This document shows, piece by piece, positions 1,055 to 17,510 of a stretch of DNA of 64,000 nucleotides. The notes beneath the pieces were generated by a model. That model was not told where the DNA came from. It saw only the letters and a list, made by a program, of their open reading frames with translations, and ran no database searches. The translations under genes were made by a program, and so were the position numbers. Origin of the DNA: a virus. The stretch is from IMG/VR virus record IMGVR_UViG_3300025536_000010, positions 124,001 through 188,000 of that record, one strand, 5' to 3'. Positions within the stretch are counted from its first letter, which is position 1, and each line of letters opens with the position of its first letter.

Positions 1055-1524
1055 TTGCGGACCTCCTGACGGACCTGTACCAGCCGGAGGCGAAGATCAT
1101 TAAACAACTGTACCAGCGCCACACGGATACCAGCGACCCAACGAAAGGTGACTGCTTTGCAACCTGCGTGGCGATGATCCTGGGTCTGCAACAAGACGAA
1201 GTACCTAACTTCTGCGGCATTGCGACGGACTGGTGGCCTGGGTTCCAGAAATGGTTAGAGGAGCGACACCTAGTCGCTATCGAGGTCAACCTGCCGCCTC
1301 CTCCCTGGAAAAACCTTGGGGCGCTGACACCAGGCGTGCCCGTCATCCTCACAGGTAAAAGCCCAAGGGGTGATTGGTTGCACTCGATTGTTGGCATGAC
1401 GCGGTGGGATGAAGGGTTTGAGATACTCTACGACCCACACCCGGCTGGTGGCGGGTTTGATGGGCCACTCAAACATGTGCTGTTCTTTGCAGCGCTCAGA
1501 CCAGACAAGGCAGGGAAGCCATGA
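1051..1524 (+). CDS. Papain-like (C39-type) cysteine peptidase candidate
   Basis: 157 residues. GDCFATCVAMILGL (about residues 33-46) resembles the active-site Cys helix of C39/papain-like folds; a later LHSIVGM (near 110) supplies a candidate catalytic His, and LYDPHP (near 125) a candidate Asp. There is no signal peptide. It overlaps both neighbours by 4 bases and lies between gp25-like and J-like baseplate genes, so it may be a virion-associated hydrolase or a processing protease. Catalytic assignment is inferred from motif order only; it could be an inactive structural relative. Confidence 0.5.
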   Translation: MIADLLTDLYQPEAKIIKQLYQRHTDTSDPTKGDCFATCVAMILGLQQDEVPNFCGIATDWWPGFQKWLEERHLVAIEVNLPPPPWKNLGALTPGVPVILTGKSPRGDWLHSIVGMTRWDEGFEILYDPHPAGGGFDGPLKHVLFFAALRPDKAGKP

Positions 1525-3173
1525 TCGAACTCCGGCCGTTCTCGCAGCTGAATCCCGACGACGTGGCCCAGCAGCACGCTGAGGCCCTCCAGCGCGTCCA
1601 GGAGGACAACCCCAAGCTGGACCTGCGTCGAGGCGTATTCGCCGACCTCCTGATATACTACCATTCGATCCTGGCAGGCCAGGGTCAGATGAACATCAAA
1701 GACTACTGGCGGGCGCGCAGCCTCCAGGCGATGGAGGCCGACCCGGACCTGGCCACGGCCGACCCAGACCTGGTCGGCGACGTGATTTCTAACTTCAACG
1801 TCGCCCGGCAACCAGGGGCCAAAGCAACAGGCGAGGTCACCATCGTCGTTACCGACAGCATCACGGTGACCATCGGCATCGGGGCTGTTTTCGAGGCCCA
1901 GGGCCTGCGTTTCATTACCACGCGCGTCTTCACTGGCAAAACCTCCGGCCGGATCGACGACCCCGGCGACCGTTTGCTCACTCAGACGGCAGACGGTAAC
2001 TGGGCGTTCACCATCGAGGTCCAGGCCGAACAGGAAGGCGAGCAGTACCAGATCAAGAAGGACACGCTAATCGTACCGCTGGTGCTACCGCTCAACTATC
2101 GAACCTCGTTCGCCGCCAATGATTTCGAGGGCGGCTACCAGGCCGAGACGAACCAGGACTTGCTGCTGCGGCTCCAGGAAGGCGTAGCGGCGCGCGGCCT
2201 GGGCGGGCGCATCAACCAGACGGCCACGCTGCGCGCCGTCGAAGATTTCTCCAGAGTCATCGCCGTCTCCGTGGTCGGCTACGGGGACGCCGAGATGCTC
2301 CGCGACAAACACTGGGTTTTCCCGATCTCCGGCGGCGGCCGTGTCGATTGGTACGTCCGCAGCCAGGAAGAAGTGTTCCGCAAGAAACTGCTCAAAGAGG
2401 CCACGCTAATCTCCAAAACGGACAGCGGCGTCGGCACCTGGCAGGTTAGCATCGGCCGCGACGAGGCCCCTGGCTACTACGAGATCGACAACATCCGTCC
2501 CAAGGACTCCGGTAACGCAGTCGGCGGCTTCGAGATCCTGACGGACGAGCGCGTCGCCGACTTGACCGGCCCCGGGTTCGTCCCGGACGTCTTGGCGGAC
2601 AGCGACGAGTGGGTCTACACCCGCTTCCAGGCCGGTGTCGTCCAGTTCGTCGATACCGTGCAGAGCGCTGCGGCCCTGGCGCTAGGAGCCAAGCGTGAGT
2701 ACGAGCTAGAGGCCCGCTGTCTGCCTCTGGTCGCCGAGATCCAGGACACGTTCAGTACGCCGGACAGCCGACCCAAACCTTACGACTTGCTGGTCAAAGC
2801 CCCGGTGCCGTGTTTTCTCAACCTGACCTTCACTGTTTACAAGCGCTCCGGCGAGGCCGACCCGGACCTGGCAGCCATGAAAACGGCGCTATGTACGGAG
2901 GTCAACAGCGTTGGTTTCATAGGGCGGCTGTTCGCTAGCCAGCTGCACGACGTTATTCACGCTTATCTGCGGAACGACCAGACCGCTTCCGCCATCGACA
3001 TGTTTGGGCGTATCCGGTATCCTAGTGGTGAACCCGAATACGTCCGTGACAGCGAAAAACTCGAAGTACCGGACGACCCGGTAGCGCTGGTGAGTGCCAG
3101 GACGGTGCAGTTTTTCATCAGCCCCGAGGACATCAGTATCTCGGTCGAAACGTCTGTGCCGTCGAGTCTGTGA
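1521..3173 (+). CDS. Baseplate J-like protein
   Basis: 550 residues. N-terminal pattern (a helix with LRRGVFADLLIYY near 35-50, then SLQAMEADPDLATADPDLVGDVISNFNV) and a central beta-rich region with a GYGDAEMLRDKH segment fit the baseplate J/gp47/gp6 family that forms the wedge ring of contractile tails. ATG overlaps the preceding stop (ATGA). The C-terminal half contains a Val/Thr-rich beta domain. It is the strongest indicator that the left part of the window is a contractile-tail baseplate module. Confidence 0.7.
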   Translation: MIELRPFSQLNPDDVAQQHAEALQRVQEDNPKLDLRRGVFADLLIYYHSILAGQGQMNIKDYWRARSLQAMEADPDLATADPDLVGDVISNFNVARQPGAKATGEVTIVVTDSITVTIGIGAVFEAQGLRFITTRVFTGKTSGRIDDPGDRLLTQTADGNWAFTIEVQAEQEGEQYQIKKDTLIVPLVLPLNYRTSFAANDFEGGYQAETNQDLLLRLQEGVAARGLGGRINQTATLRAVEDFSRVIAVSVVGYGDAEMLRDKHWVFPISGGGRVDWYVRSQEEVFRKKLLKEATLISKTDSGVGTWQVSIGRDEAPGYYEIDNIRPKDSGNAVGGFEILTDERVADLTGPGFVPDVLADSDEWVYTRFQAGVVQFVDTVQSAAALALGAKREYELEARCLPLVAEIQDTFSTPDSRPKPYDLLVKAPVPCFLNLTFTVYKRSGEADPDLAAMKTALCTEVNSVGFIGRLFASQLHDVIHAYLRNDQTASAIDMFGRIRYPSGEPEYVRDSEKLEVPDDPVALVSARTVQFFISPEDISISVETSVPSSL

Positions 3174-3189
3174 CACAAGGAGGTGTACA

Positions 3190-4134
3190 GTGGTGGCGAT
3201 GGCCAATCGTAAAGCGGTCGACCTGCTCGTTGGACACATGAGCAAGTCGACCCGCACCATGTCTCGCACGTTCCGGGCCTACGAGCCCGATGAGCGTGTC
3301 GCCAACTTTAGCCTCTCGTACCTCGACGCTTTCGGCTATCTCAAGAACGAGCTTGAGAAGTGGAAAGACATCACCCTGGGCGACATCGTCGAAGCGGTGA
3401 AAGACTTCCAGGGCATGTTCGGCCTGCGCAAGAGCGGCCAGGTGTGCGTGAAGACCGTGCGGGCGATGGAGATGCCGCGCTGCGGCTGCCCGGATCACGT
3501 CCGCCCGTGGCAGAACTACGCGGCCGTGCGCAACTTCGCCAGGGCCAACCTGGCCAAGTGGCAGAAAGACAACCTCAAGTACGGTATCCAGGATTACCTG
3601 CCGGGGCTCTCAAAACCAGATTTTGAGAGTATCATCTACCAGTCCTTCCAGGCGTGGTGCCGCTACGGCCACGTCCAGGTCGAGCCGGTGCGGATGAACG
3701 AGCGCCCCGACATTATCATCGCAACCGGCCGTGGGCGCCAGTCGAACTTCGACGGCCCCGGCGGTACGCTGGCGTGGGCTTACTTGCCCAACGGCAACGA
3801 TCAGCAGCTGACAATGAAGTTCGACCTGGACGAGACGTGGACGCAAGACCCGACCATGCGCGGTGTTTTGCTCGACGCCGTCGCCAAGCACGAGTTCGGC
3901 CACCTGTTCGGGCTCGACCACAGTCGCGTCCAACAGGCACTCATGGCTGCCTACTACAACCCGGCGGTGCGGAACCCTCAGCAGAACGACGACATCCCTC
4001 GGTTCCAGGCCCGCTACGGCGTCAAGCAACCCGGCGACGACGGTGGCACGACCCCGCCTCCGTCTGGCAACAACCGCCGACTCATCCTTGAGGGAGTTTT
4101 CAGCGCCACGCTGGACGGTCAGAAGGTGGCGTAA
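3190..4134 (+). CDS. Matrixin (MMP-like) zinc metalloprotease with cysteine-switch prodomain
   Basis: 314 residues from GTG 3190, chosen because AAGGAGG at 3177-3183 lies 6 bases upstream; ATG 3199 is too far from it. Residues about 45-95 look like the peptidoglycan-binding-type prodomain of matrix metalloproteases (FGYL...AVKDFQGMFGL..SG). They end in PRCGCPD at residues 96-102, the cysteine-switch motif that keeps MMP zymogens inactive. The zinc site HEFGHLFGLDH is at residues 234-244 and is followed by a Met (ALM) that could be the Met-turn. No signal peptide is seen. The C-terminal tail is Gly/Pro/Thr-rich. It follows baseplate J, so it is probably carried in the tail and acts on host surface protein (inference). 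A 9-bp palindrome interrupts the gene at 3607-3629. Confidence 0.85.
   Translation: MVAMANRKAVDLLVGHMSKSTRTMSRTFRAYEPDERVANFSLSYLDAFGYLKNELEKWKDITLGDIVEAVKDFQGMFGLRKSGQVCVKTVRAMEMPRCGCPDHVRPWQNYAAVRNFARANLAKWQKDNLKYGIQDYLPGLSKPDFESIIYQSFQAWCRYGHVQVEPVRMNERPDIIIATGRGRQSNFDGPGGTLAWAYLPNGNDQQLTMKFDLDETWTQDPTMRGVLLDAVAKHEFGHLFGLDHSRVQQALMAAYYNPAVRNPQQNDDIPRFQARYGVKQPGDDGGTTPPPSGNNRRLILEGVFSATLDGQKVA
3607..3629. repeat. Short AT-rich palindromic element, copy 1
   Basis: Perfect inverted repeat with 9-base arms (CTCTCAAAA and TTTTGAGAG) around CCAGA, inside the metalloprotease gene and in frame with it. It shares the AAAA-xCCA-TTTT core of the other copies at 7642, 17492, 23395, 30839, 36997, 44835, 49440, 56042 and 57603. 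Confidence 0.6.
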
Positions 4135-4145
4135 GGAGGGCCGGT

Positions 4146-5720
4146 ATGCGGCACCTCGTTCTCTTCCTGCTGCCGGTGCTAGCCAGCATTGCCCTGCTCG
4201 CACCGGCGCAGGAGGTCAGGCCCGTAACGCGCCCTGACCCTCCAGTCGAGAAACAGCCAGATCCGGCGATCGCGCGTCTCCGCGAAAGCGTCCAACCCGA
4301 GTTCCTTGAGTGGAGCCCGGACTACGTCGTGGAGCGCTGCGCCGAGTTCCTGGCCACGATCAACGAGAAAGACCGCTACCGCATTCGCCTGTTCAGCTTG
4401 GCCGACGTGCCCCGGCAGTACCTGCCGGCGGCCATCGCCGGTCTGTACTTCGGCACGAACAAAGTGGCCCGGGTGCCGTTCACCCAGGTTCCACGGCCAG
4501 TGCCGAACACGGACAACCGGATCTTCTGGGTTGACCTCTGCTGGTTCAACTGGAGCTATGAGGCGTGGGAGGCCGCGAGCGAGGAAGACCCGTACTTCCG
4601 TGAACCCATCGTCAGCAGTCACAACGAGGGCCTGAAATACCTCAAAGAACAAACGCGGGCCAACCCAGTCATCCGCGGTGACTGGTTCCTGTGGTACACC
4701 TTCGACAACACCGAGTTCCTGAAAGTCGGCGAGACGTTCAACGAGAAAGCGTTCTACTACCGCTTCCTCTACGCCAACGTCGAGTTCGAGCGCACGGTCG
4801 CCGAGAACGGCAAAACCGTCAAGAAAAAGGTGCGCGGTGTCGGCCCAGCCAACGCCCACGAGTTCCAGCAGGCATGGCTGGTCGAGTTCAGTCACCTGAA
4901 AGACTTTCCGACCGACATGGGTTTCATGGTGGACAAGCGTCGCTCGGGCGTGTCCTACGAGAACCGCATCGGTTGGCGGGTCCGCGGCAAGAACGGCAAC
5001 TACTGGCGCACCTTCGACGTGCTGCGCTCGGTCGGCGACCAGGACTTCGTGGAGACGCCCTTCCCGAAGCTGTTCGATGCCGGCGAGCACATCTTCCAGG
5101 ACGTGCGCGGCAACCAGGTTTACCACCTGACCAACGGGGCTGACAAGTCGACGGACATCGGCGACCCGCGTATCGTCCGTGACCATACCTCGGGCGCCCG
5201 CGTGCTGATGACCGCCGGGTCGTGCATCCATTGCCACGATACCGGCATCATCCCGTTCAAGAACGAACACCTGGTTCTGCAAGACATCGGCGACCAGCTG
5301 ATGGCTTACGATAAGGCCCGAGCAGATCGCTTCAAACAGTTCTATCTCCAGGACCGGCGTATGAAGCTGGCCGTGGAGGAGGACCAGCGGAACTTCACGG
5401 AGTTCATCAAGGACTGCAACGGGCTGACACCGCAAGAAAACGCCACGCAGTTCAGCCGTATCCGCGGTTGGTACATGCAGGACGTGACGCTCAAGCAGGC
5501 CGCCCGCGAACTGGGTGCGGGGATCGAAGAGTTCTCGGACGCCATTGGTTACCAGGCGACCAAGGGCCGTCTAGGCCGCCTGGTACTGGACGGGCGGGCA
5601 ATCCCGCGCTACACCTGGGAGCGCGGCGGCTTCCAGGAGGCCGGGCTGCTCTTGATTGAGTGGCGAAAAATGACGAAAATGGAACAAGATAAGCTCAAGG
5701 AAGGACGGCGTAACTACTAA
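4146..5720 (+). CDS. Exported protein with one c-type haem motif
   Basis: 524 residues, start after a clear AAGGAGG. Residues 1-22 form a Sec signal peptide (MRHLVLFLLPVLASIALLAP, then AQE). A single CIHCH motif lies at residues 360-364, which in exported proteins is normally the covalent haem c attachment site. The remainder is Trp/Tyr- and Asp/Glu-rich, with no other family recognised. Planctomycetes have many large exported proteins with one CxxCH, so this may be host-derived. It is odd in a tail operon. It is followed at 11 bases by a second exported CxxCH protein, and the two may work together. Confidence 0.65.
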   Translation: MRHLVLFLLPVLASIALLAPAQEVRPVTRPDPPVEKQPDPAIARLRESVQPEFLEWSPDYVVERCAEFLATINEKDRYRIRLFSLADVPRQYLPAAIAGLYFGTNKVARVPFTQVPRPVPNTDNRIFWVDLCWFNWSYEAWEAASEEDPYFREPIVSSHNEGLKYLKEQTRANPVIRGDWFLWYTFDNTEFLKVGETFNEKAFYYRFLYANVEFERTVAENGKTVKKKVRGVGPANAHEFQQAWLVEFSHLKDFPTDMGFMVDKRRSGVSYENRIGWRVRGKNGNYWRTFDVLRSVGDQDFVETPFPKLFDAGEHIFQDVRGNQVYHLTNGADKSTDIGDPRIVRDHTSGARVLMTAGSCIHCHDTGIIPFKNEHLVLQDIGDQLMAYDKARADRFKQFYLQDRRMKLAVEEDQRNFTEFIKDCNGLTPQENATQFSRIRGWYMQDVTLKQAARELGAGIEEFSDAIGYQATKGRLGRLVLDGRAIPRYTWERGGFQEAGLLLIEWRKMTKMEQDKLKEGRRNY

Positions 5721-5731
5721 GGAGGTCAGGG

Positions 5732-6484
5732 ATGACCGGAGCGCTCTTTCTGGCCCTGGCGCTCACGCCGGGTCAACACTGTTACTCGCCTCGGCCGGTG
5801 TACGGGTACTACAACAACTACTACCCGCAGACCTACTACCAGCCGGCGCACCAGGCGTACTACCCGCAACACCAGCCGGTCTACCCGGCCCAGAAAGTTA
5901 TCGCGCAAGATATTGCCGTGGCCCCGTTAATCGTTACGGTGCCCGTGGACTCGAAAGCGGTGCCGGTGCATGCGCACGGCTCGCCCTATTACTACTCGGC
6001 CAGCGACGCCTACCGCGAGAAGGCGTACCTCCGCGAAGTAATCCGCGAGGAACTGCGCGCCCTGGCTACCGGCAACGTGCCGCAGCAGAACACGCAGCCC
6101 GTACAACGGCAGCCGCAGCAGCAGGCGCAGCCGCCGGTCCAGCAGAACCAACCAGTCGTTGAACAGCAGCGCCTGGACGACGAGACGCCGATGGAGATCC
6201 AGACGCAAGTGCTGGCGGCCTACAACGGTACGGGCAAATGCGTCGAGTGCCACGGTGGCTCCGAGAAAGCGTCGGGGCGGCGTGGCCGCGAGTTCCGCCT
6301 GGTGCTGGACACAGAGAACGGACCACGGTTGGCATACCAACCGCCGGCCAAGCGTTGGGAGATCTACGGCATGGCCTCGGCCGGTGCAATGCCGCCGGCT
6401 GCCGCCAAAGACGCAGCCAAGGCGATGGAGACGAAGTTCCTGTCGATCATGCTCCAGTACGCCAGCTACAAGCCGCAGCAGTGA
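5732..6484 (+). CDS. Exported Tyr/Gln-rich protein with C-terminal c-type haem motif
   Basis: 250 residues, start after AAGGAGG. A short hydrophobic N-terminus (MTGALFLALAL) may be a signal peptide. Residues 20-50 are a Tyr/Pro/Gln-rich low-complexity stretch (repeated YY, QP) and 115-150 a Gln/Pro-rich linker. CVECHGG at residues 170-176 is a haem c motif, and the last 80 residues resemble a small cytochrome c-like domain ending with AGAMPPAAAKDAAKAME. The architecture is an exported protein with a flexible stalk and terminal haem domain. It sits in the exported trio 4146-7194. Confidence 0.65.
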   Translation: MTGALFLALALTPGQHCYSPRPVYGYYNNYYPQTYYQPAHQAYYPQHQPVYPAQKVIAQDIAVAPLIVTVPVDSKAVPVHAHGSPYYYSASDAYREKAYLREVIREELRALATGNVPQQNTQPVQRQPQQQAQPPVQQNQPVVEQQRLDDETPMEIQTQVLAAYNGTGKCVECHGGSEKASGRRGREFRLVLDTENGPRLAYQPPAKRWEIYGMASAGAMPPAAAKDAAKAMETKFLSIMLQYASYKPQQ

Positions 6485-6516: not shown

Positions 6517-7194
6517 ATGAGCAAGAAGATTTTCGGACTGGGCCTGCTGATTTTCGGACTGGCAAGCCTTTGTCTCGTAAGCGACGCGGACGCCCGCGGT
6601 GTCCTCAGTCAGAGGAGCCAGCGGACCACGATTACCAGCCGCAGCAACGGTTTCCGCGACGTGCAGCGGATTCAGACGACCACGCGCAGCGGGTTCCTGG
6701 GCCTGAACCGCCGGCAGGAGAGCCTCACGATCATCAACGGCAACCGCGGCTTCCAGGAGGTACGGTTCCAGGATCGCGGCAGGCTTGGGCGCAACCGCGT
6801 CGACGAGATTCGTTTCCAGACCGGCCCGGCCTATGTAAACCAGCAGCTGCTGATCGACAACCACGCACGGCAGCGGCTTTTGCTGAATCGGCAGCACAGC
6901 TTTACGCACGCCCCCAGGAACAACGTGGCGAACATTCGCTTTATTGACCGGGGGCCAGTGTACCTGAACGCACCGCCTATTACGCGGGCGGAGATCCGGC
7001 AGGAATATGTCTACCGGCAACCAGCACAGGTAATTGAGCGGGTGGAGGTCGCTCCGCAGACTGCGGCGGACTGTGACTGCGAGCAGGTCGGTAACGCTCA
7101 GTACCAGACGGAAGCTATCGTGACGCGGCGCTACACCTACAGCCCGCAGCTGGCGCTCGAACGACGGCAGTTCATGCAGCACCACTGCCGCTAA
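6517..7194 (+). CDS. Exported basic protein, function unknown
   Basis: 225 residues; ATG 6517 preceded by AAAGGAG. The N-terminus is a signal peptide with an internal duplication (IFGLGLLIFGLA) cut near DADARG. The mature part is rich in Arg, Asn and Gln with recurring NRxxF/RFxDRG segments (for example about residues 62-85 and 140-150), which suggests a degenerate internal repeat. Two Cys (DCDC) lie near residue 186. No enzyme family is recognised. It ends the exported trio and is followed by a strong terminator. Confidence 0.6.
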   Translation: MSKKIFGLGLLIFGLASLCLVSDADARGVLSQRSQRTTITSRSNGFRDVQRIQTTTRSGFLGLNRRQESLTIINGNRGFQEVRFQDRGRLGRNRVDEIRFQTGPAYVNQQLLIDNHARQRLLLNRQHSFTHAPRNNVANIRFIDRGPVYLNAPPITRAEIRQEYVYRQPAQVIERVEVAPQTAADCDCEQVGNAQYQTEAIVTRRYTYSPQLALERRQFMQHHCR

Positions 7195-7645: not shown

Positions 7646-7660
7646 AAAGTGGATTTTGGA
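7642..7660. repeat. Short AT-rich palindromic element, copy 2 (leader type)
   Basis: CCTAAAAAGTGGATTTTGG, an imperfect palindrome with the GTGG-oriented core. It includes the stop codon of the preceding gene and ends 3 bases before ATG 7664, replacing a normal ribosome binding site. Confidence 0.6.
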
Positions 7661-7663
7661 ACC

Positions 7664-9190
7664 ATGCCGTACAAGTTCCCCGCTTCGGACCTCGATTCCG
7701 CCCAAACGCTGCTGGCCTCGGTCGGTGGCTTCTGGAACGGCGTCTACCAGGGTTCCTTCCTGGTCGAGAGCCTGCTCTACGCCCGCGCCCGGTTAGAGGA
7801 ACAGACCCACCTCGACTTCCTGGAACTGCTGGCCTCGGTCAGCCGTTTCAAACTGCCGGTCTTCCATACGGACGTCTGGTACTTGCTGACGCTCAAAGAG
7901 AGCGAGCGGAACCAGGCCGAGGCCAACCTGGCTAAGTTCGACGGCACTTACACCTTCGAGAGCGGTATCGAGTACGACGTGCCGGTGGACACAGAGTTCC
8001 ACGTTTGGCAACTGCCCGCGGGCTTAGTGAACTTCAACCTGGCGCTCAACCGTATCACGGCTTCCAGCGTTAGCCTGGCCAAAGGCGTCGATTACTTCCT
8101 CAAAGACGGGGCCGTCTGGTTCCGCCAGAACCCCTTCGAGAACGACTTGGTCGCCAAGCGCGAGGTCTTCGAGGACGGCGTCATCACCGACCGCGAATGC
8201 GGCCTGTGGCTCTATCGCGGGCAGTGGGACTGGGACGCGGTCTACACCCAGTTCTCCTACGCGCTGGGTATGAAACTCAAGTCCTCCCAGGCTGCCAAGG
8301 ATCTCGTCAACGCGATCTTCGACGCCCTCACCCTGGGCTGCACCGACCGCTACCTCAACCGGGCCTTCTCGGCTGTCTGCGGCGTACCCTTGGCCAAGGG
8401 CGCGGAGACGGTCGAGCACACCTACACCGACCGCCGCGGCCTTTGGGTCGTAACGGACAAAAACGTCTATCGCTTCCACCAGGACGCCAACCTGCTTGTC
8501 GACGTCGGCGACGCCCTGGTCGAGGGCCAGGCGCTCACGGACGCCCTCCGCTTTTTCGAGTTCGGCCGCGGCCAGGTGCCCAGCGAGATCCGGGCGCTGT
8601 CGGTCGGCAAGGGTCTGCTAGCCGAAGGCTATTTCCAAGATCTCGTTTTCGAGAACAAAGAAGTCTCCACGGAGATCGACGAGGACCAGACCTGGACCCG
8701 CCTGACTTTCGAGGTCGGCGGTTTTCCGCTCGACGTGCAAAAGTTCTGGGACGACGTTCACCGCAAGGGCGTGGAGAGCGGACAGACCCTGGCCATGCTC
8801 CTGGACCGGCGGACCAACAAGACGGGCCAGCCCAAGGCGGCAGCGTTACCGCTGACGATCAACCCGCTGGGTTTCTTGCTCCAGAACGTGTTCCGCAACA
8901 ACCTCTTTGTGGTCCTGATCCGAGCCAACTGCCTCGGCCCTGATGCCTTGGGGCTCCAGCATGCCCGTTTCCTGCGCCGGATTCTGCCGCCGCACACCTG
9001 CTGTATCGTGCTGGCGCAGCTAGAAGCGACCGATGAGGTTACTATGGACGGACCAGGAGATGAAACAACTCCCGGTTACGAGGAAGACCTGGGCGTCTTC
9101 CTGGGACTCACCAACACCGAAGAAGTCGAAGGCCCGGACCAGATCGAAGAAGAACTGCGTGTCTTCCAGATCAACGGCCGCTGCCAATAG
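7664..9190 (+). CDS. Putative tail/baseplate structural protein
   Basis: 508 residues from ATG 7664 (an in-frame GTG at 7649 lies inside the repeat element and is less likely). The N-terminal 60 residues are helical with a LYARARLEEQTHLDFLELLASVSRF segment, the middle is mixed alpha/beta, and the C-terminus is acidic. No enzyme motif is seen. Length, position among virion genes and even codon use suggest a large tail or baseplate component. The family is not recognised. Confidence 0.55.
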   Translation: MPYKFPASDLDSAQTLLASVGGFWNGVYQGSFLVESLLYARARLEEQTHLDFLELLASVSRFKLPVFHTDVWYLLTLKESERNQAEANLAKFDGTYTFESGIEYDVPVDTEFHVWQLPAGLVNFNLALNRITASSVSLAKGVDYFLKDGAVWFRQNPFENDLVAKREVFEDGVITDRECGLWLYRGQWDWDAVYTQFSYALGMKLKSSQAAKDLVNAIFDALTLGCTDRYLNRAFSAVCGVPLAKGAETVEHTYTDRRGLWVVTDKNVYRFHQDANLLVDVGDALVEGQALTDALRFFEFGRGQVPSEIRALSVGKGLLAEGYFQDLVFENKEVSTEIDEDQTWTRLTFEVGGFPLDVQKFWDDVHRKGVESGQTLAMLLDRRTNKTGQPKAAALPLTINPLGFLLQNVFRNNLFVVLIRANCLGPDALGLQHARFLRRILPPHTCCIVLAQLEATDEVTMDGPGDETTPGYEEDLGVFLGLTNTEEVEGPDQIEEELRVFQINGRCQ

Positions 9191-9203
9191 CGAGGAGGGA
9201 GCC

Positions 9204-9863
9204 ATGCTGGAGGTACTGCCGCTGCCCGAAGGCCGTGTCCGTATTCACCGCGTCCAGGAGTTCACCTTCCGCGACCGGGTACGGAACATGCTCCGGGAGC
9301 GCATACCTGACCCGGCCGCGGGTTATCGCCCGCACGGCTGGACCCCGTTGACCGACTTCGTGCCCAACGCCATCCTCTACGAGTGGGGAGCCGTCGTCGG
9401 CAACCTGCTGGCCAAGAAAGGGCAGCAGTACGGCATCGGCGGCATGTACATCGAGTTCGAGAACGTCGCCGACCCCGACGACGCCGTGGTAGAGCCGGAT
9501 TTCTCACGCGACGCCGACCAGGGCATCGACTACTACAACGACCTGGGCGAAAGCCCTGACCGGGATTACCTGCGGGTGCCCCTGATCGCCGCCTATCTCC
9601 AGTCGAGCGACGAGACAAAGTACCCCAAAGGCAACGAGGTCGTTTTCTTCGCTCAGACCTCTGGCGTGGAAGGCGTCCACGGCAAGCCGTTCTCCGACGC
9701 CGACAACAGCAAAGCATTCGGCGGTGCTCTGGTGGCCTTCGTTGACGAGGCCGATCACACGCGCGATTTGGTCCTGAGCCGCTTCTACCTCGACTCAGGG
9801 AGTCAGCAGGTGAAGCTGCCCACATCCCAGATAGGTTACGAATGGCGACTCCGTCTGAAATGA
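9204..9863 (+). CDS. Hypothetical virion-region protein
   Basis: 219 residues; ATG 9204 follows GAGGAGGGAGCC. The N-terminal half contains a WTPLTDFVPNAILYEWG segment and a Gly-rich loop; the C-terminal part is beta-rich with VVFFAQTSG and a FYLDSG..QVKLPTSQIGYEW ending. This kind of C-terminus is common in phage tail or fibre accessory proteins. The stop lies 22 bases inside the next small gene. Confidence 0.5.
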   Translation: MLEVLPLPEGRVRIHRVQEFTFRDRVRNMLRERIPDPAAGYRPHGWTPLTDFVPNAILYEWGAVVGNLLAKKGQQYGIGGMYIEFENVADPDDAVVEPDFSRDADQGIDYYNDLGESPDRDYLRVPLIAAYLQSSDETKYPKGNEVVFFAQTSGVEGVHGKPFSDADNSKAFGGALVAFVDEADHTRDLVLSRFYLDSGSQQVKLPTSQIGYEWRLRLK

Positions 9864-10081
9864 ACGACGACCTGCGGCCCGAGTACGACCTGAGCAAACT
9901 GATGCGGTTGCCGTCCGAGAAATTCCGCAAAATGCAGCCCAAGGAAGTACCGACCTGGCACTTCATCAAAACCCTGTTTGACCGGCTGACGCCGGACGAG
10001 CGCAGCAAGGTGGTCGGCGACTGGTGCAAAGCCTGCTGGAGGAACCCAGCAGCCGCCTGCAACTGCACGCGGGACGACTAA
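9842..10081 (+). CDS. Small hypothetical protein with C-terminal Cys cluster
   Basis: 79 residues. It is helical, with WCKACWRNPAAACNCTRDD at the C-terminus holding four Cys, a possible metal site. It overlaps the preceding gene by 22 bases and precedes the 611-residue gene by 15. The ribosome binding site is weak. Confidence 0.5.
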   Translation: MATPSEMNDDLRPEYDLSKLMRLPSEKFRKMQPKEVPTWHFIKTLFDRLTPDERSKVVGDWCKACWRNPAAACNCTRDD

Positions 10082-10096
10082 CAAGGAGGGGCACGG

Positions 10097-11932
10097 ATGT
10101 CCTTTGAACGCTTCCTCACACTGGTACAGGAGAGGGACCGGGTTAAAGCCGGGACGGTCAACAAACCGCTCCGCACCACGGACCAGAACGTCCGTTACCT
10201 GTGGGACGTCCTCCAGGCCGCCGGCATCGGCTCGACCGTCTACCTGCACCGGCAGACGGTGGAGCCCGAAGTCCACAAGGGCATGGCTGTCTGGCTCAAC
10301 CCGGACACCACGCGCTTCGAGCGCTGCCTGGCCTTCGCTGACGTCGACGGCGCCACGGGCGTCGTTTACACGGCCAACTCGGCTCAGGTCTGGGGCGTCG
10401 TCACGGAGAAGATCAACGCCACGCTGGCCGAGATCCTCTTGTTCGGCGTTGTTGACCTGAACCTGTCCGAAGCCGTTGCCGACAGCGACGACCTGGGGCC
10501 GGGCGTCTACTACCTCTCGTCCAGCCAGCCCGGCAAGCTGACGCGGCAGAAGCCACCTGTCTCGGTGGCCGTGCTGCGCGCCACCACGGACGGCAAGGTG
10601 TTCGTGATGCCGCAGTTCGTGGACTTCCTCGACCGGCACACGCACTACCGTTTCAGCTTGACCTGCGCCCCGGCTGGTGACACGACGCCGCCGGCTCCGG
10701 GCGGCACACACGCGATCACCAGCCCCAACGTCCTGACGCAAGGTTGGCTGCCGGCTGGACACAGCAGCTTCAACGGTAAAGCCCCGCCCGGAGCCGTCTT
10801 TGGCTACAACCTGGAAGCACACACGGCCCTCAAGAACCTGTGGCCGCCTCAACCGTTCAACAACGCCTACCTGGAGTTCGACCGCGGCGAAGACTCGGCC
10901 CTGGGCTTCATCGGCGTGCCGCTGGGCAGCAACGGCCTGTGCGTCGCCGACCGTTATGGCATCTGGTGGATGTCCAACTGCTACGGGGACGTGCCCTGGC
11001 CTACAGCGCTCGACACCGAAACGTCTGACAGCTACTCGGACTCTTCCGATGTGGAGTGCCCGCGGCATCTCCAGATGGCCATGCAGCTGTGGTTCACCAA
11101 GATCAATTTTGCCACCGACTTGACGTCGGTACTGTCGCTGCATTCGGGCGACAACCGCATCCGAGTCCGCTGCTACGGCAAGCCTGACCAGGTGGCCAGC
11201 ACCGGGCACCTAGAACTGTTCCTCAACCTGAACCTGGTGGTCAAGGACGACCAGCCTGGCTACCTGGCTTTCAAAGACTTCGACCCGGAGAAAGCAGAGT
11301 TCAAACGCGGCCCGGTGGTGGAAGGCTTCTACAAGCTCTCCAACAACGTCACCCTGGTCGGCACCAAAGTCGGCGAGCGCGAGATCGGTGACACCACCTA
11401 CGATCTCTACCAGGGCTTGGTCGGTATCGCTGTGGCCCCGGAAGAGACGCTCGAACTGCCGGTGCAGCTGGTACGGCTCAAAGGCGTCGAGGAAGACTTC
11501 TTCCAGGATCTGATGTATCTGGCCTTCCGCCCAGCTGTCCAGGAGGAATACCGCGCCAAGCTCGTCGTGCCGTCGGATCTAGCTATCCCCAACCCGCAGA
11601 TGAAGATCCGCATGGCGATTATGGGCCGCGCGGCCGGCACGCTGCCGGTCCTCACGGTAACGGCGCGCCGTGCCGCCAGACCCGAGGACGGCCTGGGTAC
11701 GCCGCTGTCCCTGCCGCTGACTGGCGCAGAGTTCTCGGTCACCATCGACACCCAGGGCGTACTGACCCTGGCAAACCAATACGTCGAGGCCGAGAGCGAA
11801 CCGTTTGACGTCGCGCCAGGGGATACAGTGTTTTTCACCGTCAGGCGCCTGGCCACGGACGGCTACGGAGCCGACGTGGGTATCCTGCGGCAGTCGGGCA
11901 TTTTGCTTTCAGGAGAAGACGATGAGGATTAG
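10097..11932 (+). CDS. Large putative virion surface protein
   Basis: 611 residues, start after AAGGAGGGGCACGG. No signal peptide. It is mostly beta-structured with Gly/Pro-rich turns, a Pro/Thr linker near residues 195-210 (DTTPPAPGGTH) and a Ser/Asp-rich acidic loop near 308-320 (SDSYSDSSD). The C-terminal third resembles an immunoglobulin-like or carbohydrate-binding beta domain (VTIDTQGVLTLANQ, VFFTVRRLA). No exact family is recognised. Order in the operon suggests a tail fibre or whisker. Confidence 0.5.
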   Translation: MSFERFLTLVQERDRVKAGTVNKPLRTTDQNVRYLWDVLQAAGIGSTVYLHRQTVEPEVHKGMAVWLNPDTTRFERCLAFADVDGATGVVYTANSAQVWGVVTEKINATLAEILLFGVVDLNLSEAVADSDDLGPGVYYLSSSQPGKLTRQKPPVSVAVLRATTDGKVFVMPQFVDFLDRHTHYRFSLTCAPAGDTTPPAPGGTHAITSPNVLTQGWLPAGHSSFNGKAPPGAVFGYNLEAHTALKNLWPPQPFNNAYLEFDRGEDSALGFIGVPLGSNGLCVADRYGIWWMSNCYGDVPWPTALDTETSDSYSDSSDVECPRHLQMAMQLWFTKINFATDLTSVLSLHSGDNRIRVRCYGKPDQVASTGHLELFLNLNLVVKDDQPGYLAFKDFDPEKAEFKRGPVVEGFYKLSNNVTLVGTKVGEREIGDTTYDLYQGLVGIAVAPEETLELPVQLVRLKGVEEDFFQDLMYLAFRPAVQEEYRAKLVVPSDLAIPNPQMKIRMAIMGRAAGTLPVLTVTARRAARPEDGLGTPLSLPLTGAEFSVTIDTQGVLTLANQYVEAESEPFDVAPGDTVFFTVRRLATDGYGADVGILRQSGILLSGEDDED

Positions 11933-12152
11933 CAACATCCTGGGGCCAGACGGCAAACCGTACGAGGTGCCGGACCCAAAACCTGAGTTCTTGCTGGAGT
12001 TCTACGTCTACGAGACAGGGAGCTTCGTTGACCCCTACTTGAGAGTTGCACCATGTCCTACTGGAACGGTTGGCCCCGAGAATGGGACTACAACGAGAAG
12101 CTCATCTGGCGAGCCCTCAGAGCCCTCCAGCGCTTCCCCGACAAGTGGCTAA
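11922..12152 (+). CDS. Small hypothetical protein, C-terminus in an overlap
   Basis: 76 residues; ATG 11922 has a good AGGAGAAG leader and overlaps the previous stop by 11 bases. Residues 1-44 look natural (ILGPDGKPYEVPDPKPEFLL). The last 33 are Ser/Thr/Gly/Pro-rich and read through the next gene in another frame. Either the true stop was lost or the tail is functional low complexity. Confidence 0.45.
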   Translation: MRISNILGPDGKPYEVPDPKPEFLLEFYVYETGSFVDPYLRVAPCPTGTVGPENGTTTRSSSGEPSEPSSASPTSG

Positions 12153-12454
12153 GCGCGAGGACCGTTACCGCCCTTATGGACCCGCCCTGCCACCGGAGTC
12201 ACGGCCGCGGCTTCTGCCGGGCGCTGTACAAGATGGGCTACCTCGACCGCGACGACTGCGGCCACTATCGGGTGAACGCGCTCGGCGTACGGCACAGCCG
12301 CATGAACGACGAAGTACGCGAGTTGATGCGGCGGCGGGCTTACCGGCCCGTGCCGCTGCCGGAGGGTCTGGAGCACCTGTTCACGGACGAATCCCAGGCG
12401 CTCAGCAAGGCGCGGAAGGAGAGCACGGATGCCTCTCGGGCACTGGAACGTTGA
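12053..12454 (+). CDS. Winged-helix-like DNA-binding protein (putative)
   Basis: 133 residues. Residues 15-75 suggest a winged helix: two helices, WLSARTVTALMDPPCHRSHGRGFCRALYKMGYLDRDDCGHYRVNALG with a helix, a recognition-like helix and a beta hairpin (shown here in part: RGFCRALYKMGYLDRDD). The C-terminus is charged. It overlaps 100 bases of the preceding small gene and 26 of the next. The ribosome binding site is weak (GAGAGTTGCACC). It may regulate the fibre genes that follow. Confidence 0.55.
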   Translation: MSYWNGWPREWDYNEKLIWRALRALQRFPDKWLSARTVTALMDPPCHRSHGRGFCRALYKMGYLDRDDCGHYRVNALGVRHSRMNDEVRELMRRRAYRPVPLPEGLEHLFTDESQALSKARKESTDASRALER

Positions 12455-13385
12455 ATGGCTGAACCACAACAGCCAACGAAGCTACCCCCTGGCGGATGAC
12501 GCCAGCGGCCTCGACGACAGCGGGGACTTCGAGCTTCCTGACGACTTCATCGTCGAACTGGACCTGCCGGTCCACGCCGGCATGGACGTAGACCCGGCGC
12601 GCTTCTTCATCAAACACATCGGGGCCTACTCGACCGGCTACGCTGTCATCGTCGGCTACCAACCCTCTGCCGGTGACGCTATCACAGTTGCCTCCGCCCT
12701 GATTCCGCGCCAGACGCACGCACGCAACACGGCCTACGCCCTGGGCGGCATCGAGCCCTTTGACGACACCGTGGGCAAGCTCGTCATCGGCAAGCTCGAC
12801 AACATCGACGAGCAGCCACCAGGCTACTGGAACTTCTCGCTGGAGAACGCCAGACTGGAACCCGACGCTGTCCGGCCGATCATTCGCGGTGTCTCCAGCG
12901 TCGTCTGCGTCAACGGCGACCAACGCTCGCTGCCGCTGCGTGGTGTGCTCGAACTCCAGGCCGGGCAGAACATGCAAATCATCCCGATCCTAGTGAGCGG
13001 GCAAGACCCAATCATTCGTTTCAACGCCATCGACGGCGAGGGTACAATCGACGAGTGCGTCTGCGAGGGCGACGCGGCTCCCACGGACCCGATCAAGCGC
13101 ATCAACGGCGTCGCCCCGACGCCTACCGGCGACTTCAACATCATCGGCACGGACTGCCTCCAGATCGAAGTGATCGCCAACGGTATTCGCCTGGTCGATA
13201 AATGCTCGGCCCCGTGTTGCGACTGCAAAGACCTGGAACGCATCACCCGCGACCTGGAACGCCTCAACAGTCAGGCCGCAACCGTCAACGACTTCGTCGA
13301 ACGCCTCCGAGACTCGGTCAACACGTTCGACCTGATCGTCCTCGGGTCCAAACTGGGCGACCGCGGCTGCGTCACCTGCGAATAG
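12429..13385 (+). CDS. Virion surface protein, family A paralogue 1
   Basis: 318 residues, start after AAGGAGAGCACGG. Its N-terminus (WNVEWLNHNSQRSYPLADDA, then DDSGDFELPDDFIVELDL) shares the pattern W-x-N-x-R-Y-P-L-x-x-A...D-x-G...LP-x-x-x-x-D-L with the genes at 14959, 16656 and 17510, so these are tandem paralogues. The middle is beta-rich; a Cys-rich segment (CSAPCCDCKDL) lies near residues 256-266, followed by a coiled helix (about 266-300). Ends CVTCE. Likely a fibre or decoration protein; cysteines may cross-link or bind metal. Confidence 0.55.
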   Translation: MPLGHWNVEWLNHNSQRSYPLADDASGLDDSGDFELPDDFIVELDLPVHAGMDVDPARFFIKHIGAYSTGYAVIVGYQPSAGDAITVASALIPRQTHARNTAYALGGIEPFDDTVGKLVIGKLDNIDEQPPGYWNFSLENARLEPDAVRPIIRGVSSVVCVNGDQRSLPLRGVLELQAGQNMQIIPILVSGQDPIIRFNAIDGEGTIDECVCEGDAAPTDPIKRINGVAPTPTGDFNIIGTDCLQIEVIANGIRLVDKCSAPCCDCKDLERITRDLERLNSQAATVNDFVERLRDSVNTFDLIVLGSKLGDRGCVTCE

Positions 13386-13394
13386 GAGGCCAAG

Positions 13395-14948
13395 ATGTCG
13401 CACCCCTTCGGCCGCCAACCTATCGGCCCCAACCAGCCGCCCGGCGGCGGTACAAACTATCCGTTTGTTGCGCCCGAGGACGATGTGCGCCAACTCCTCG
13501 GCGACTTCTACCTGTCTTACGAGGACGACACCTGCGCCTTCGCGCTACCGCTGCGCGTCACCTGGCTCTACGGCTTCGGCGACAACGTCGTGGCTGCGCC
13601 GTCTGGTACGCCCACGCCGGTCCACGCCCAAGACCTGGTCGTCAAAGACGCTGAGGGCGTTACGGTCTTCGACTCGACCCAAGCGGTCGATTTCAAGACG
13701 ACGGTCTGGGGCGGGCGCCTGCTGGTACTGGAGTGGACCACGGAGACACAGGTCTGCCGCTGCACTGTCCACACCGCCTGGGACGCCGAGGATACGCCGC
13801 TGACCTACGACAACCACATCGTCCCGGAGAACGGCGAACTCGACGCCCGGACCTACAACCGTCTGCCCGGCCGTGTAAAAGCGTTTCGAGTCGGCCTCCA
13901 GACGATCACCGGCAACGTCCAGTTCGACGCCGGTTTCAACATGGCTATCGCCGGCAGCAGCACGCCGCGCACGGATGGCACGTTGTTCGTCGACCGCGTC
14001 GACATGGACGCCGTCCCCGGCGCCGGGCTCGGTCGCCAACCAGGCTGCGAGGAAGCCGAGGTCGTCACGCGGCTCATTAACGCAATCGGCCCCGACAAGG
14101 GCGGCAACTTCATAATCGAACTGGATGAGTGCTACCGCGGGCAGCTAGCCGCTTTCGCCCAGGATACCGAAGACGGGCGCACCGCCGAGTACGGCGCTGA
14201 CATCTACACGGACGAAGAGGCCAAAAGCGCACTGAGAATCTTCAACGACTGCCAACCGTGCTGCCCCTGCGATTACTACGTCCGCACCTACAAGGGCCTC
14301 AAGCGCGTCTGGGACAAGTGGAAAACGGCCGGCGTGGCCGCCGAAGAGGTCCGCGACCTCTACAAGGACAACGTCAACCGCTGGGAGGAACAGCGGCAAT
14401 GCCGCATTGAGCACCCGGCACGACTGGTCGTCAGCGCCGACAAGCAGTGCCGTGTGTTCGTGGGTGGCACCTACTGTAACTTCTCGAAATGCTGTCTGCG
14501 GGACATCGAGTTCCGTTTCACGTTCGAGTGGATACGCAACGGGCAAACAGAACCCGAGCCGGTCCATGACCTGCGCGTGTTCGATTCTTTTGTGAACGCC
14601 AGTTACACCGAAGGGGAGGAGCCGATCACGCCGCTGGTGACTGCCTCAACCGTCCGTTTCCTGATCGACTACGCGGACCCGCAGGCGATCACCCTGGTCA
14701 AGTTCCGGGTCTGCATCACCTGCGAGCGCGGCGACACGCTCAAGGTGTGGTTCAGTGTCCACGTCCCTGACCCTGGCCTGGACGCAGCCGGCGAGCCGTG
14801 CGAGTTGCCAGTGATAGAGATCCCGGCGCACCTGATCGAGATCTGGCTGAACGACGGGTTGCCGGAGCCCGAGCCAGCACGGGCGCTCGTAGTGAAGCTC
14901 GCACCGCTCGACCCAGTCAACCCGGTTTCCAGCTGCGTCGTTTGCTAA
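13395..14948 (+). CDS. Virion surface protein, family A paralogue 2 (divergent)
   Basis: 517 residues, start after TAGGAGGCCAAG. The N-terminus keeps a shorter version of the shared pattern (NYPF, then LLGDFYLSYEDD). A Cys-rich stretch (CQPCCPCDYY, near residue 290) followed by a helix parallels the CSAPCCDCKDL element of the preceding paralogue, so the two probably share that module. The C-terminal 200 residues look like two immunoglobulin-like beta domains. No enzyme motif. Confidence 0.55.
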   Translation: MSHPFGRQPIGPNQPPGGGTNYPFVAPEDDVRQLLGDFYLSYEDDTCAFALPLRVTWLYGFGDNVVAAPSGTPTPVHAQDLVVKDAEGVTVFDSTQAVDFKTTVWGGRLLVLEWTTETQVCRCTVHTAWDAEDTPLTYDNHIVPENGELDARTYNRLPGRVKAFRVGLQTITGNVQFDAGFNMAIAGSSTPRTDGTLFVDRVDMDAVPGAGLGRQPGCEEAEVVTRLINAIGPDKGGNFIIELDECYRGQLAAFAQDTEDGRTAEYGADIYTDEEAKSALRIFNDCQPCCPCDYYVRTYKGLKRVWDKWKTAGVAAEEVRDLYKDNVNRWEEQRQCRIEHPARLVVSADKQCRVFVGGTYCNFSKCCLRDIEFRFTFEWIRNGQTEPEPVHDLRVFDSFVNASYTEGEEPITPLVTASTVRFLIDYADPQAITLVKFRVCITCERGDTLKVWFSVHVPDPGLDAAGEPCELPVIEIPAHLIEIWLNDGLPEPEPARALVVKLAPLDPVNPVSSCVVC

Positions 14949-14958
14949 GGAGGCGTCG

Positions 14959-16656
14959 GTGCCGATTCGTAACCTACACTGGACCAACCGCAACGACGGG
15001 ATCAAATACCCCGTCGACGATCAGGCAACGGCCCTGGACGATGCCGGTGCGCTCCTGCCTTCGGAGATTCTCGCGGACTTGTTCCTACGCTGGCCGAAGC
15101 ACCTCGGCGACTACGCTTTCCTGTCGTCGGTCAGTGTCACGCGCTCCTTGGTCACCGTCACGATCCAGGCGGCCCGCACGCTCGACGACGAGGATTTCAC
15201 CCCGCTGGCCGTGCTGTCTGTCACCAAGCCGGTCCAGGACGGCCGCGTCTACGCGCTCCAGCCGCAGGTCCAAGGCGTCGGCGGCTGGGTCGTTTTCGGC
15301 CGCGGCGTCCAATTCGATCCAACAGACGGTCTGGTCTACCGTGGTCGTTTCTCCTCACCACGGCAAAGTCGCCTGGCGCCGCGCGCGGCTCGGCCTTACC
15401 GTGGCTTGCCCGTTCACAGCGCCCAGGTCCAAAACGCGGCCACCAGGCTAACAGGCGTAGTCCTGCTGCGCGGCGTCCTACCCGTGCGCGTGGTCAAAGA
15501 GGAGCGGACGATTGACGGCGTACTGCGCGACTGCATCGTCATCCGCCTGGTCGACGTGGCCGGCGTCGACGGTTTTGCCGTACCGGCGGCAGCCCGCGAG
15601 ATCTCCGGCTTCAAAGAAGCCAGTTCTTTTCAGGAGTTCGCCGGCCCCTGCGCCAACCGGCCCGAGTCTGGTACTTGCGGCACGCCGGAACCTATCGAGT
15701 TCGTCAACGCCGTGGCCCCTGACTGCAACGGCGTCCTCACCCTGGAGTTCCGCGGCTGCGCCGCCGTAGCCCAGGTCTTGGGGACGTGCGGCATTATCGT
15801 AGACTGCGACCTGGGCCTGGCCCGAGCCTGCTTGCCGCCCTATATCCCCAGCAGCGACGGCAAACTGCCCAGTGAATACGACCCCATTGTTGTCGAACCG
15901 CCCATCGACCCGCCGCCACCGGACCCAGAGCCCGGCGCGTCGGAGTCGTTGGTGGTACTGGGCGAATTGCCTTATATCGACTGCTTCCACGACGGCGTGG
16001 CCGATGACTTCGTGAACAAGTATGGCCTGTGGCAGCTGGTCGAGGACGACAGTCCCGCGACCATGTGTGACGACGAATCGGTGCCTGTGTCTGAGTCCCT
16101 ATCGGCGTCGACATCCGCGTCGGTCGGTAGTGAGCGCATCTTGCAAAGCCTGGAGGCGTACACGACAGCCAGCCGCAACATCACGGTCTGGGAGGGCTTT
16201 GACGACAGCACGGTCTACCGGCGGATCATGACCGACGTGAAACTGGCCCTCGGCCCGGCTGGGTCCAAAACCAACGCCGGCATCGTCCTCAACTACCGGC
16301 AGGCGTCGCCAAGCAGCACGGCCTACCTGTACCACCTGGTCGAGATCGACTACGAGACACAGGAGTTCCGCATTGTTCGCTTCAACGGCACTAACACTGT
16401 GCCAGTAGTCCCGGTGTCGGTGCCAGGTATCCACCCGGACGCCTGGTATCGGATCGACGTCAACGTCGTGCCTGGGGCGACGCCGGGGCAGATCACGATC
16501 ACGGCGCAGCTGACGTCCATCTCCGAGCCCGGCCTTATCGACGTCACGCTCAGCGTGACCGTCAACGATTACGGGACGACGCAGGGTCGGTTCGGTTTCC
16601 ACACCAACCGCGCCCTGGCTCGGTTCAGCTACTTCTACTTGCGGGAGTTTCCGTAA
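14959..16656 (+). CDS. Virion surface protein, family A paralogue 3, with lectin-like C-terminus
   Basis: 565 residues from GTG 14959, preceded by AAGGAGG. The N-terminus has the shared motif clearly (LHWTNRNDGIKYPVDDQA, DDAGALLP). A Pro/Asp linker lies near 305-325 and a Ser-rich tract (SESLSASTSASVGS) near 375-390. The last 170 residues resemble a LamG/concanavalin-like domain: a GFDDSTVYRRIM strand pattern, LYHLVEIDYETQEFRIVR, WYRIDVNVV and a final RFGFHTNRALARFSYFYL. This suggests sugar binding at the tail surface. Specificity is unknown. Confidence 0.6.
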   Translation: MPIRNLHWTNRNDGIKYPVDDQATALDDAGALLPSEILADLFLRWPKHLGDYAFLSSVSVTRSLVTVTIQAARTLDDEDFTPLAVLSVTKPVQDGRVYALQPQVQGVGGWVVFGRGVQFDPTDGLVYRGRFSSPRQSRLAPRAARPYRGLPVHSAQVQNAATRLTGVVLLRGVLPVRVVKEERTIDGVLRDCIVIRLVDVAGVDGFAVPAAAREISGFKEASSFQEFAGPCANRPESGTCGTPEPIEFVNAVAPDCNGVLTLEFRGCAAVAQVLGTCGIIVDCDLGLARACLPPYIPSSDGKLPSEYDPIVVEPPIDPPPPDPEPGASESLVVLGELPYIDCFHDGVADDFVNKYGLWQLVEDDSPATMCDDESVPVSESLSASTSASVGSERILQSLEAYTTASRNITVWEGFDDSTVYRRIMTDVKLALGPAGSKTNAGIVLNYRQASPSSTAYLYHLVEIDYETQEFRIVRFNGTNTVPVVPVSVPGIHPDAWYRIDVNVVPGATPGQITITAQLTSISEPGLIDVTLSVTVNDYGTTQGRFGFHTNRALARFSYFYLREFP

Positions 16657-17495
16657 TGGCCCAGATCCTGTTCCCAGAATGGCGCAGGCAGAACGAGCCG
16701 ACCAAGTATCCGCTGGCGGAACAGGCCACCATGACCGCCCTGGACGGTCGTGTGCTAGTCGAAGGTACGTTCCTGGACGCCGCCCTGTACCCTATCGGAG
16801 CCAAAGCCGGCGTCTACCTGGCAGCCGTCACGCTCGATCACCAGAACGCTGTCATGGAACTGGGCGACCCGTTCGACAAAGCCCTGGCCTCGGCCACCTT
16901 CTCCTTGGTTGACCCGCCGGACGAGGTCGTCTTCGTCGACCGTTACGGCAGGCCGGCAGGCGTTATCGTCAGTGAGTCGACCCGGCTGGGCATCTTTCAG
17001 TCCTGGGGCGTCGGCCGGCACGAGTTCGCTCAGGAAGGCTCCGAGTTTGCTGCCACCTGCGTTATACCCACACCAGAGGTCGGCGTGCGCGGCTTCCTCC
17101 TGGAGACGGGCGAGTTGTTCGTAGGGGACGTGTGGCTGGTAGGCAGCGACGGCGTCGTCTTGCGCACCACGAACATCTCGGTGCCGGCCAGCTGCGGGCA
17201 ACCGGAGCGCACCGTCCGAGCCATCCGCGTCGACATCGTCGGCGACCCACTATTTCGCCGCCGGCTGTGTCAGCCGAACGACCTGTTCGACACGCCACGG
17301 TTCGTACGCACGGTGCGCGTCGTCGGCCCCAACTACACCTTCGAGTGTCCGCCGGACGCCGCCGGCAACCTCATGTTGGCCGCTGGCAACGGCCTGGCGG
17401 CAGACACGGTATTGCGGATCGCTGTTACCCCCAACGGGCTCAAGATCGGCTCGGTCGGCGAGTCGCAGAGTACCGAGAACGTGAACGCCTTCTAA
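16656..17495 (+). CDS. Virion surface protein, family A paralogue 4
   Basis: 279 residues. TAATG overlap couples it to the preceding gene. The N-terminus FPEWRRQNEPTKYPLAEQA carries the family motif, followed by a beta-rich region; conserved short segments such as CQPNDLFDTPRFVRTVRVVGPNYTF may mark a second shared domain. No signal peptide. It ends at the TAA inside repeat-element copy 3. Confidence 0.55.
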   Translation: MAQILFPEWRRQNEPTKYPLAEQATMTALDGRVLVEGTFLDAALYPIGAKAGVYLAAVTLDHQNAVMELGDPFDKALASATFSLVDPPDEVVFVDRYGRPAGVIVSESTRLGIFQSWGVGRHEFAQEGSEFAATCVIPTPEVGVRGFLLETGELFVGDVWLVGSDGVVLRTTNISVPASCGQPERTVRAIRVDIVGDPLFRRRLCQPNDLFDTPRFVRTVRVVGPNYTFECPPDAAGNLMLAAGNGLAADTVLRIAVTPNGLKIGSVGESQSTENVNAF

Positions 17496-17510
17496 AAAGT
17501 GGTTTATAGA
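17492..17510. repeat. Short AT-rich palindromic element, copy 3 (leader type)
   Basis: CTAAAAAGTGGTTTATAGA spanning the stop of one gene and touching the ATG at 17510 of the next. No Shine-Dalgarno sequence is present at this start. Confidence 0.55.

Follow-up and report, generated by a model that had tools for sequence, protein, structure and literature searches.

A predicted matrix metalloprotease zymogen with a cysteine switch in a jumbo phage and its viral relatives

The PRCGXPD motif of the cysteine switch has been described for mammalian matrix metalloproteases (MMPs), and is presumed to work in the same manner in plants, fungi and the remaining animals (PMC6949598). Karilysin, an MMP of Tannerella forsythia, has a prosegment of 14 residues and an aspartate switch (PMC6949598), whilst the phage MMP described herein harbours a long prodomain and a cysteine; the matrixin catalytic fold is common to both, with karilysin (4r3v) appearing among the structure matches of the phage protein.

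A number of matrixin-like or related enzymes are of viral or phage origin. The Mtz/Tim system of Listeria includes a metzincin of phage origin, which enhances both lysis and the release of virions; unlike the phage MMP, it is secreted, has a TIMP-like lipoprotein partner and sits with lysis genes, and the paper describing it mentions no cysteine switch (PMC8235301). Insect viruses (granuloviruses, ascoviruses, iridoviruses and entomopoxviruses) encode MMPs with matrixin-like domains, which act in animals. The metalloproteases of Lactobacillus phage 3-521 and Maribacter phage Colly_1 are likewise matrixin-like, but are distant from the phage MMP (9–16 % identity), and that of phage 3-521 is without the RCG switch. 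The main text of a 2025 MMP phylogeny is silent on both viruses and the switch (PMC12587646), and no paper on phage proMMPs was found in a search that covered few subscription papers.

The stretch of DNA analysed here (the window; 64,000 nt) corresponds to positions 124001–188000 of an IMG/VR virus record of 234,886 bp, and contains a gene whose product resembles a complete proMMP.

The phage record and the architecture of the gene product

A simple gene call on the record yields 254 genes, with 91 % of the sequence coding and nearly all genes on one strand. The families present include a terminase large subunit, minor head and virion structural proteins, a tail fibre and an endolysin, as well as DNA polymerase A, ribonucleotide reductase, a multi-subunit RNA polymerase (Rpb1/Rpb2 domains) and tubulin/FtsZ. 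The record is a bona fide tailed jumbo phage of 235 kb, upholding the original prediction that the gene is phage-encoded. Matrixins are common among bacteria (PMC12587646), and one could suppose that bacterial DNA has been wrongly assigned to a virus here, or that the gene comes from a host and is in transit, with no phage role. This is almost certainly wrong, and is already contradicted by the phage hallmarks and one-strand coding of the record, by relatives in 21 further viral loci that group together in a single clade, distinct from the MMPs of bacteria, and by the conserved phage gene order that these relatives occupy. Elsewhere, the record (G000) carries a Pfam caspase domain (Peptidase_C14, 6e-23), DHODH, OMP decarboxylase, Thy1 and an intein.

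The features of the gene are as follows, with residues here and throughout counted from ATG 3199 unless stated otherwise.

3190–4134, + strand: predicted proMMP (matrixin) zymogen of 311–314 aa, starting at GTG 3190, GTG 3193 or ATG 3199 (open frame, Pfam, phmmer)
3319–3468, + strand: prodomain, a PG_binding_1-like helical domain, residues 41–90 (aligned to proMMP-1 and proMMP-3)
3475–3495, + strand: cysteine switch PRCGCPD (Cys95, Cys97), with the switch Cys retained in every viral relative
3556–4020, + strand: matrixin catalytic domain, residues 120–274 (Pfam PF00413, E 9.9e-30)
3889–3921, + strand: zinc-binding motif HEFGHLFGLDH, residues 231–241, which fits HExxHxxGxxH (sequence)
3937–3945, + strand: Met-turn ALM, residues 247–249, invariant across the phage family
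4021–4131, + strand: Pro/Gly linker and a short element at the C-terminus, differing between family members (alignment)

An AGGAGG Shine–Dalgarno sequence at 3178–3183 is best placed for initiation at GTG 3190 or GTG 3193 (spacing of 6–9 nt); ATG 3199 is a possible start, but lies 15 nt from AGGAGG. Counted from 3190, PRCGCPD occupies residues 96–102 and HEFGHLFGLDH residues 234–244, becoming 93–99 and 231–241 from ATG 3199. The distance from the switch Cys to the first catalytic His is 136 residues, versus 126 in the aligned human proMMP-1. As in a proMMP zymogen, where 70–90 residues are expected, a prodomain with PRCGXPD precedes the catalytic domain. Over this prodomain the Pfam match to PG_binding_1 (E 3.6e-4, 21.1 bits) falls under the cut-off of 23, and Peptidase_M10 (PF00413, M10A) scores 103.9 bits against a curated cut-off of 24. 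Human proMMP-1 (1su3) aligns with residues 30–285, covering the prodomain, switch and catalytic domain (phmmer, E 1.1e-29). This alignment spans the whole zymogen and reflects homology, far beyond two chance motifs. Thus the open frame and both motifs are as originally described, with full proMMP homology besides, and the gene product is, on the strength of sequence and model, very probably an MMP-type zymogen with a cysteine switch. The element that follows the Pro/Gly linker is possibly an anchor or targeting piece. No hydrophobic N-terminal stretch that could serve as a signal peptide is present in any of the 18 phage MMPs examined, unlike the neighbouring cytochromes and proteases, which do have a hydrophobic N-terminus.

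A first AlphaFold2 model of the full-length protein (pLDDT 74) already had MMP proenzymes among its matches, but was too loose to judge domain arrangement, and residues 31–277 were therefore remodelled with a deeper alignment of 30 sequences. The trimmed, template-free model (pLDDT 89.3, pTM 0.87) finds its best PDB match in proMMP-3 (TM 0.80 by query and 0.88 by target, rmsd 2.8, 246 columns), and the top 17 PDB matches are all pro-forms, including proMMP-1, proMMP-10 and proMMP-9. A predicted fold with no matrixin domain had been named beforehand as grounds for refuting the claim; the model has a matrixin fold, and the claim survived. The modelled prodomain sits against the catalytic domain much like that of zymogens with solved structures, a pose that is not independent proof, since AlphaFold2 training included MMP structures. 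By likeness to human proMMPs, a Cys thiolate is predicted to sit on the catalytic zinc.

Viral relatives and their gene contexts

A search for close relatives gave no real match among 50,697 GenBank phage records, and PHROGs contains no match to the phage MMP. IMG/VR scans, by contrast, returned 21 viral loci with relatives (L002, L056–L071 and L103–L106), the contigs being 43 to 408 kb in length; this count leaves out L072, a weak match covering residues 228–289 only. Besides the window phage, the MMP is present on at least 19 viral contigs.

Alignment of 16 phage proteins (the window protein and 15 homologues with 37–60 % identity to it) reveals RCG, HEFGH..GL.HS and ALMA to be invariant. 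In members outside this alignment the switch reads KRCGCLD, PRCACPD, PRCGVSD or PRCGCPD, and its Cys is kept in every viral relative, down to 37 % identity, which points to selection on the switch. A second Cys at position X of the switch (CxC) occurs in 17 of 20 distinct phage proteins versus 0 of 9 bacterial proMMPs (p 7e-5 by a Fisher test on a conservative 16/20, the related sequences not being independent). The structural-zinc histidines typical of MMPs, which Pfam does not need, are replaced, with LAWA for LAHA and K/R/E-FD for HFD. Separately, 14 of the 16 phage MMPs display a Cys directly before the catalytic His (VACHEFGH), the window protein having Lys at this position (residue 230). 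Maximum-likelihood analysis of 60 sequences groups the phage MMPs in one clade (UFBoot/SH-aLRT 87/75), from which 37 of the 38 bacterial rows are separate; L076, a long-branched planctomycete sequence of unsure placement, adjoins it. Judged by these alignments, the phage MMPs appear to be a phage-specific clade under selection on the switch, and the presence of this monophyletic clade across seven gene contexts suggests a selected function in phages.

In the window, the gene is accompanied by the following features.

1521–3173, + strand: baseplate J / baseplate wedge protein, encoded immediately before the MMP (PF04865 5.6e-10; phrog_6 4e-18)
4146–5720, + strand: exported protein with the c-type haem motif CIHCH (5223–5237), cassette partner 1; cellular homologues carry PSCyt1
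5732–6484, + strand: exported cytochrome c/PSCyt1-like protein with CVECH, cassette partner 2 (PSCyt1 E 0.054, weak)
6517–7194, + strand: third protein, beginning with what looks like a signal sequence (sequence; no Pfam match)
7649–13385, + strand: tail-block genes 7649–9190, 9033–9863, 10097–11932 and 12429–13385, in an order kept in 12 relatives
18513–21809, + strand: large protein with collagen-like GXY repeats, probably a tail fibre, and a candidate substrate of the phage's own under a rival reading only

The MMP gene was originally placed beside baseplate J, and this is indeed the case: it lies directly downstream in 12 loci of one phage lineage, with the order of the block kept over ~16 kb. 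One reading of this position is that of a virion-borne entry protease, held on or near the baseplate, activated on contact and cutting surface protein during infection. We consider this possible but rather unlikely. Consistent with it, the gene begins 16–25 nt after baseplate J within a tail block of conserved order in the 12 loci, the divergence of the MMP parallels that of baseplate J (42–57 % and 39–65 % identity to the window, respectively), and the absence of a signal peptide is as expected of a structural protein. However, the phage MMP is also found in six contexts besides the tail block (L062/L068/L070; L069; L071; L103; L104/L105; L106), bringing the total to seven, and within 10 kb of it in these six no tail-block gene in common with the window was detected by profiles at E 0.01 or by BLAST. 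The only recurrent gene that these searches found between the tail block and the other contexts is the MMP itself. In L103 the MMP adjoins terminase and the cytochromes, and in L104/L105 it lies among small non-structural genes; moreover, exported cytochromes, which would be improbable components of a virion, share this slot with the MMP inside the tail block.

A second use within the particle would be morphogenesis, with the protease maturing or trimming the phage's own proteins, such as the collagen-like fibres encoded 14–17 kb downstream. The record carries two collagen-like repeat genes; the large proteins with such repeats at L007:15977–19897 (record G000) and 18513–21809 of the window are probably tail fibres. 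Collagenases belong to the matrixins, and 11 of 12 tail-block phages have a Pfam collagen match above cut-off, located 14–17 kb downstream of their MMP. These phages are, however, of one ancestry and hence near to a single observation, and none of the eight tested MMP phages of other contexts has collagen above cut-off, records of 126–408 kb included. In addition, the phage MMP is without a hemopexin domain, and GXY fibres are common in phages. With collagen matches confined to tail-block phages among those tested, processing of its own fibres is a minor and improbable rival, and a collagen-like fibre as obligatory substrate was rejected, as MMP phages of other contexts are without it.

A different association is seen with the cytochromes. 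The MMP adjoins both exported CxxCH proteins, the larger of which has a single such motif, in seven phages (the window, L056, L057, L104, L105, L069 and L103), an adjacency that spans four gene contexts and in which cassette order varies, with the MMP first in five phages and last in two. Orthologues of partner 2 in L103 and L104 exceed the Pfam cytochrome c cut-offs. Partner 1 itself has no PDB or Pfam match and is connected to PSCyt1 only via cellular homologues, those of planctomycetes carrying this planctomycete cytochrome c domain. No adjacency of MMP and cytochrome was seen in the bacterial MMP loci scanned. The six contexts outside the tail block and the constant cytochrome neighbours in seven phages favour a cassette that can pass between phages over a component of the baseplate, and give the MMP the look of a mobile tool for attack on the envelope, not of established tail hardware.

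The same adjacency in seven phages and four contexts, together with cellular homologues of partner 1 in Planctomycetota and Myxococcota, could be taken to mean that MMP and cytochromes remodel the periplasmic electron transport or cytochromes of the host, akin to auxiliary metabolism, with entry and exit beside the point. This is very doubtful, as the cytochromes are exported by signal peptide and the MMP is not, and as about half of the MMP phages are without partner 1; for the latter reason the cytochrome pair is also not an obligatory companion of the protease.

Several further features of these neighbourhoods were recorded. The two haem motifs are split over two genes in phages and reside in one protein in planctomycetes. 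A proposed link between CxC and the cytochromes was discarded, as the cassette phages L056 (CGF) and L105 (CGV) are without the second Cys. In L002 the cytochrome slot is filled by 11711–12835, which harbours papain-like motifs (GDCVSHS, HAM and NSW; no Pfam match), and by 12811–13437, encoding an exported, thioredoxin-like product. An exported matrixin without the cysteine switch is also present in L071 and L106, in the latter directly downstream of the proMMP (L106:8991–9629). L071 additionally encodes a large chain of ribonucleotide reductase that bears a LAGLIDADG insert (14256–17699), and an exported domain fused to a matrixin catalytic domain (8300–9646). The same exported domain forms a separate gene in three MMP phages (L062:4139–5395, L068:2418–3404 and L070:644–1642), an arrangement that, by sequence, hints at a functional link; an apparent second MMP in these three proved to be only this domain.

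With regard to the host, 8 of 294 genomes of Planctomycetota and 6 of 189 of Myxococcota encode homologues of partner 1, against 0 of 201 of Chloroflexota. The planctomycete-cytochrome-like partners and these cellular homologues lend indirect plausibility to a planctomycete host, tempered by the homologues in Myxococcota. The accompanying premise of a protein-rich planctomycete wall is dated, as planctomycetes do have peptidoglycan (PMC4432640, PMC4432595).

Proposed mode of action

In its general form, the reading that we favour is that a latent zymogen made in the cytoplasm becomes active after leaving it and digests host envelope protein, a proposal that we regard as evenly poised between right and wrong. 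The PG-binding-like prodomain would lay Cys95 of PRCGCPD over the intact HExxHxxGxxH zinc site, as predicted from sequence and model by comparison with human proMMPs. Synthesis probably takes place at a late stage of infection, under the reducing conditions of the host cytoplasm and without a signal peptide; that none of the 18 phage MMPs has the hydrophobic N-terminus of its neighbours argues for this location. There the switch would keep the protease harmless to phage and host proteins. The zymogen might then leave the cytoplasm on the particle, in the tail-block phages, or by release at lysis, with the prodomain displaced either by proteolysis or by oxidation of Cys95, near which Cys97 often lies. 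The active enzyme would cut proteins in the envelope or on the surface of the host cell, at entry or lysis, and in many of these phages may work with the two adjacently encoded, exported c-type cytochromes.

Action on the envelope side is favoured by the adjacency of the MMP to exported cytochromes, and to trypsin-like proteases (L104 and L071), and by the presence of exported matrixin paralogues (L071 and L106). The trypsin-like proteases are exported and encoded just upstream of the MMP (L104:9232–10032 and L071:7374–8078). In animals, trypsin-like enzymes activate proMMPs, and by analogy these proteases may be the activators in the two phages. A more specific version of activation would be a redox-gated switch, in which Cys95 would hold the zinc in the reducing cytoplasm, whilst in the oxidising envelope or beyond it a Cys95–Cys97 disulphide would draw the thiolate away from the zinc and activate the protease, possibly with help from the exported cytochromes. 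We rate this as quite improbable; if true, the phage would possess a weapon armed by its own departure from the cell.

Comparison with animal and bacterial proMMPs

Human proMMP-1, -3, -10 and -9 (MEROPS M10A) share with the phage MMP a prodomain, PRCGxPD, HExxHxxGxxH and the Met-turn, at ~30 % identity across the whole zymogen and with a like predicted fold and domain arrangement. Unlike them, the phage MMP is without a signal peptide, hemopexin domain and structural-zinc histidines, and usually has CxC. Taken alone, this resemblance gives the switch an animal flavour, which is misleading. ProMMPs with PRCGxPD are also found in Paenibacillus (L013, L015 and L016), Streptomyces (L014), Nitrospira (L022), Myxococcales (L020) and Chloroflexota (L111), whilst the Bacillus proMMP has HRCAMPD; the planctomycete matrixins found here are without a cysteine switch. 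As such bacterial enzymes exist, a direct animal origin is not needed, and the cysteine switch should not be taken as a sign of one.

These bacterial proMMPs are similar to the phage MMP in their PG-binding-like prodomain, RCGxPD and matrixin domain, and several are also without a signal peptide. In contrast to the phage proteins, they keep the structural-zinc histidines, often have long C-terminal repeats, display CxC in 0 of 9 cases and are separate in the tree; inspection by eye revealed no contractile-injection neighbours. In the phages, a seemingly complete zymogen is maintained in a clade that moves between unrelated phages, often with exported cytochromes. The phage proMMP provides a defined protein for studying how large phages of uncultured hosts handle protein-rich envelopes, and a natural test of a redox-driven cysteine switch. 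Alongside the animal and bacterial enzymes, it adds a new branch to MMP evolution.
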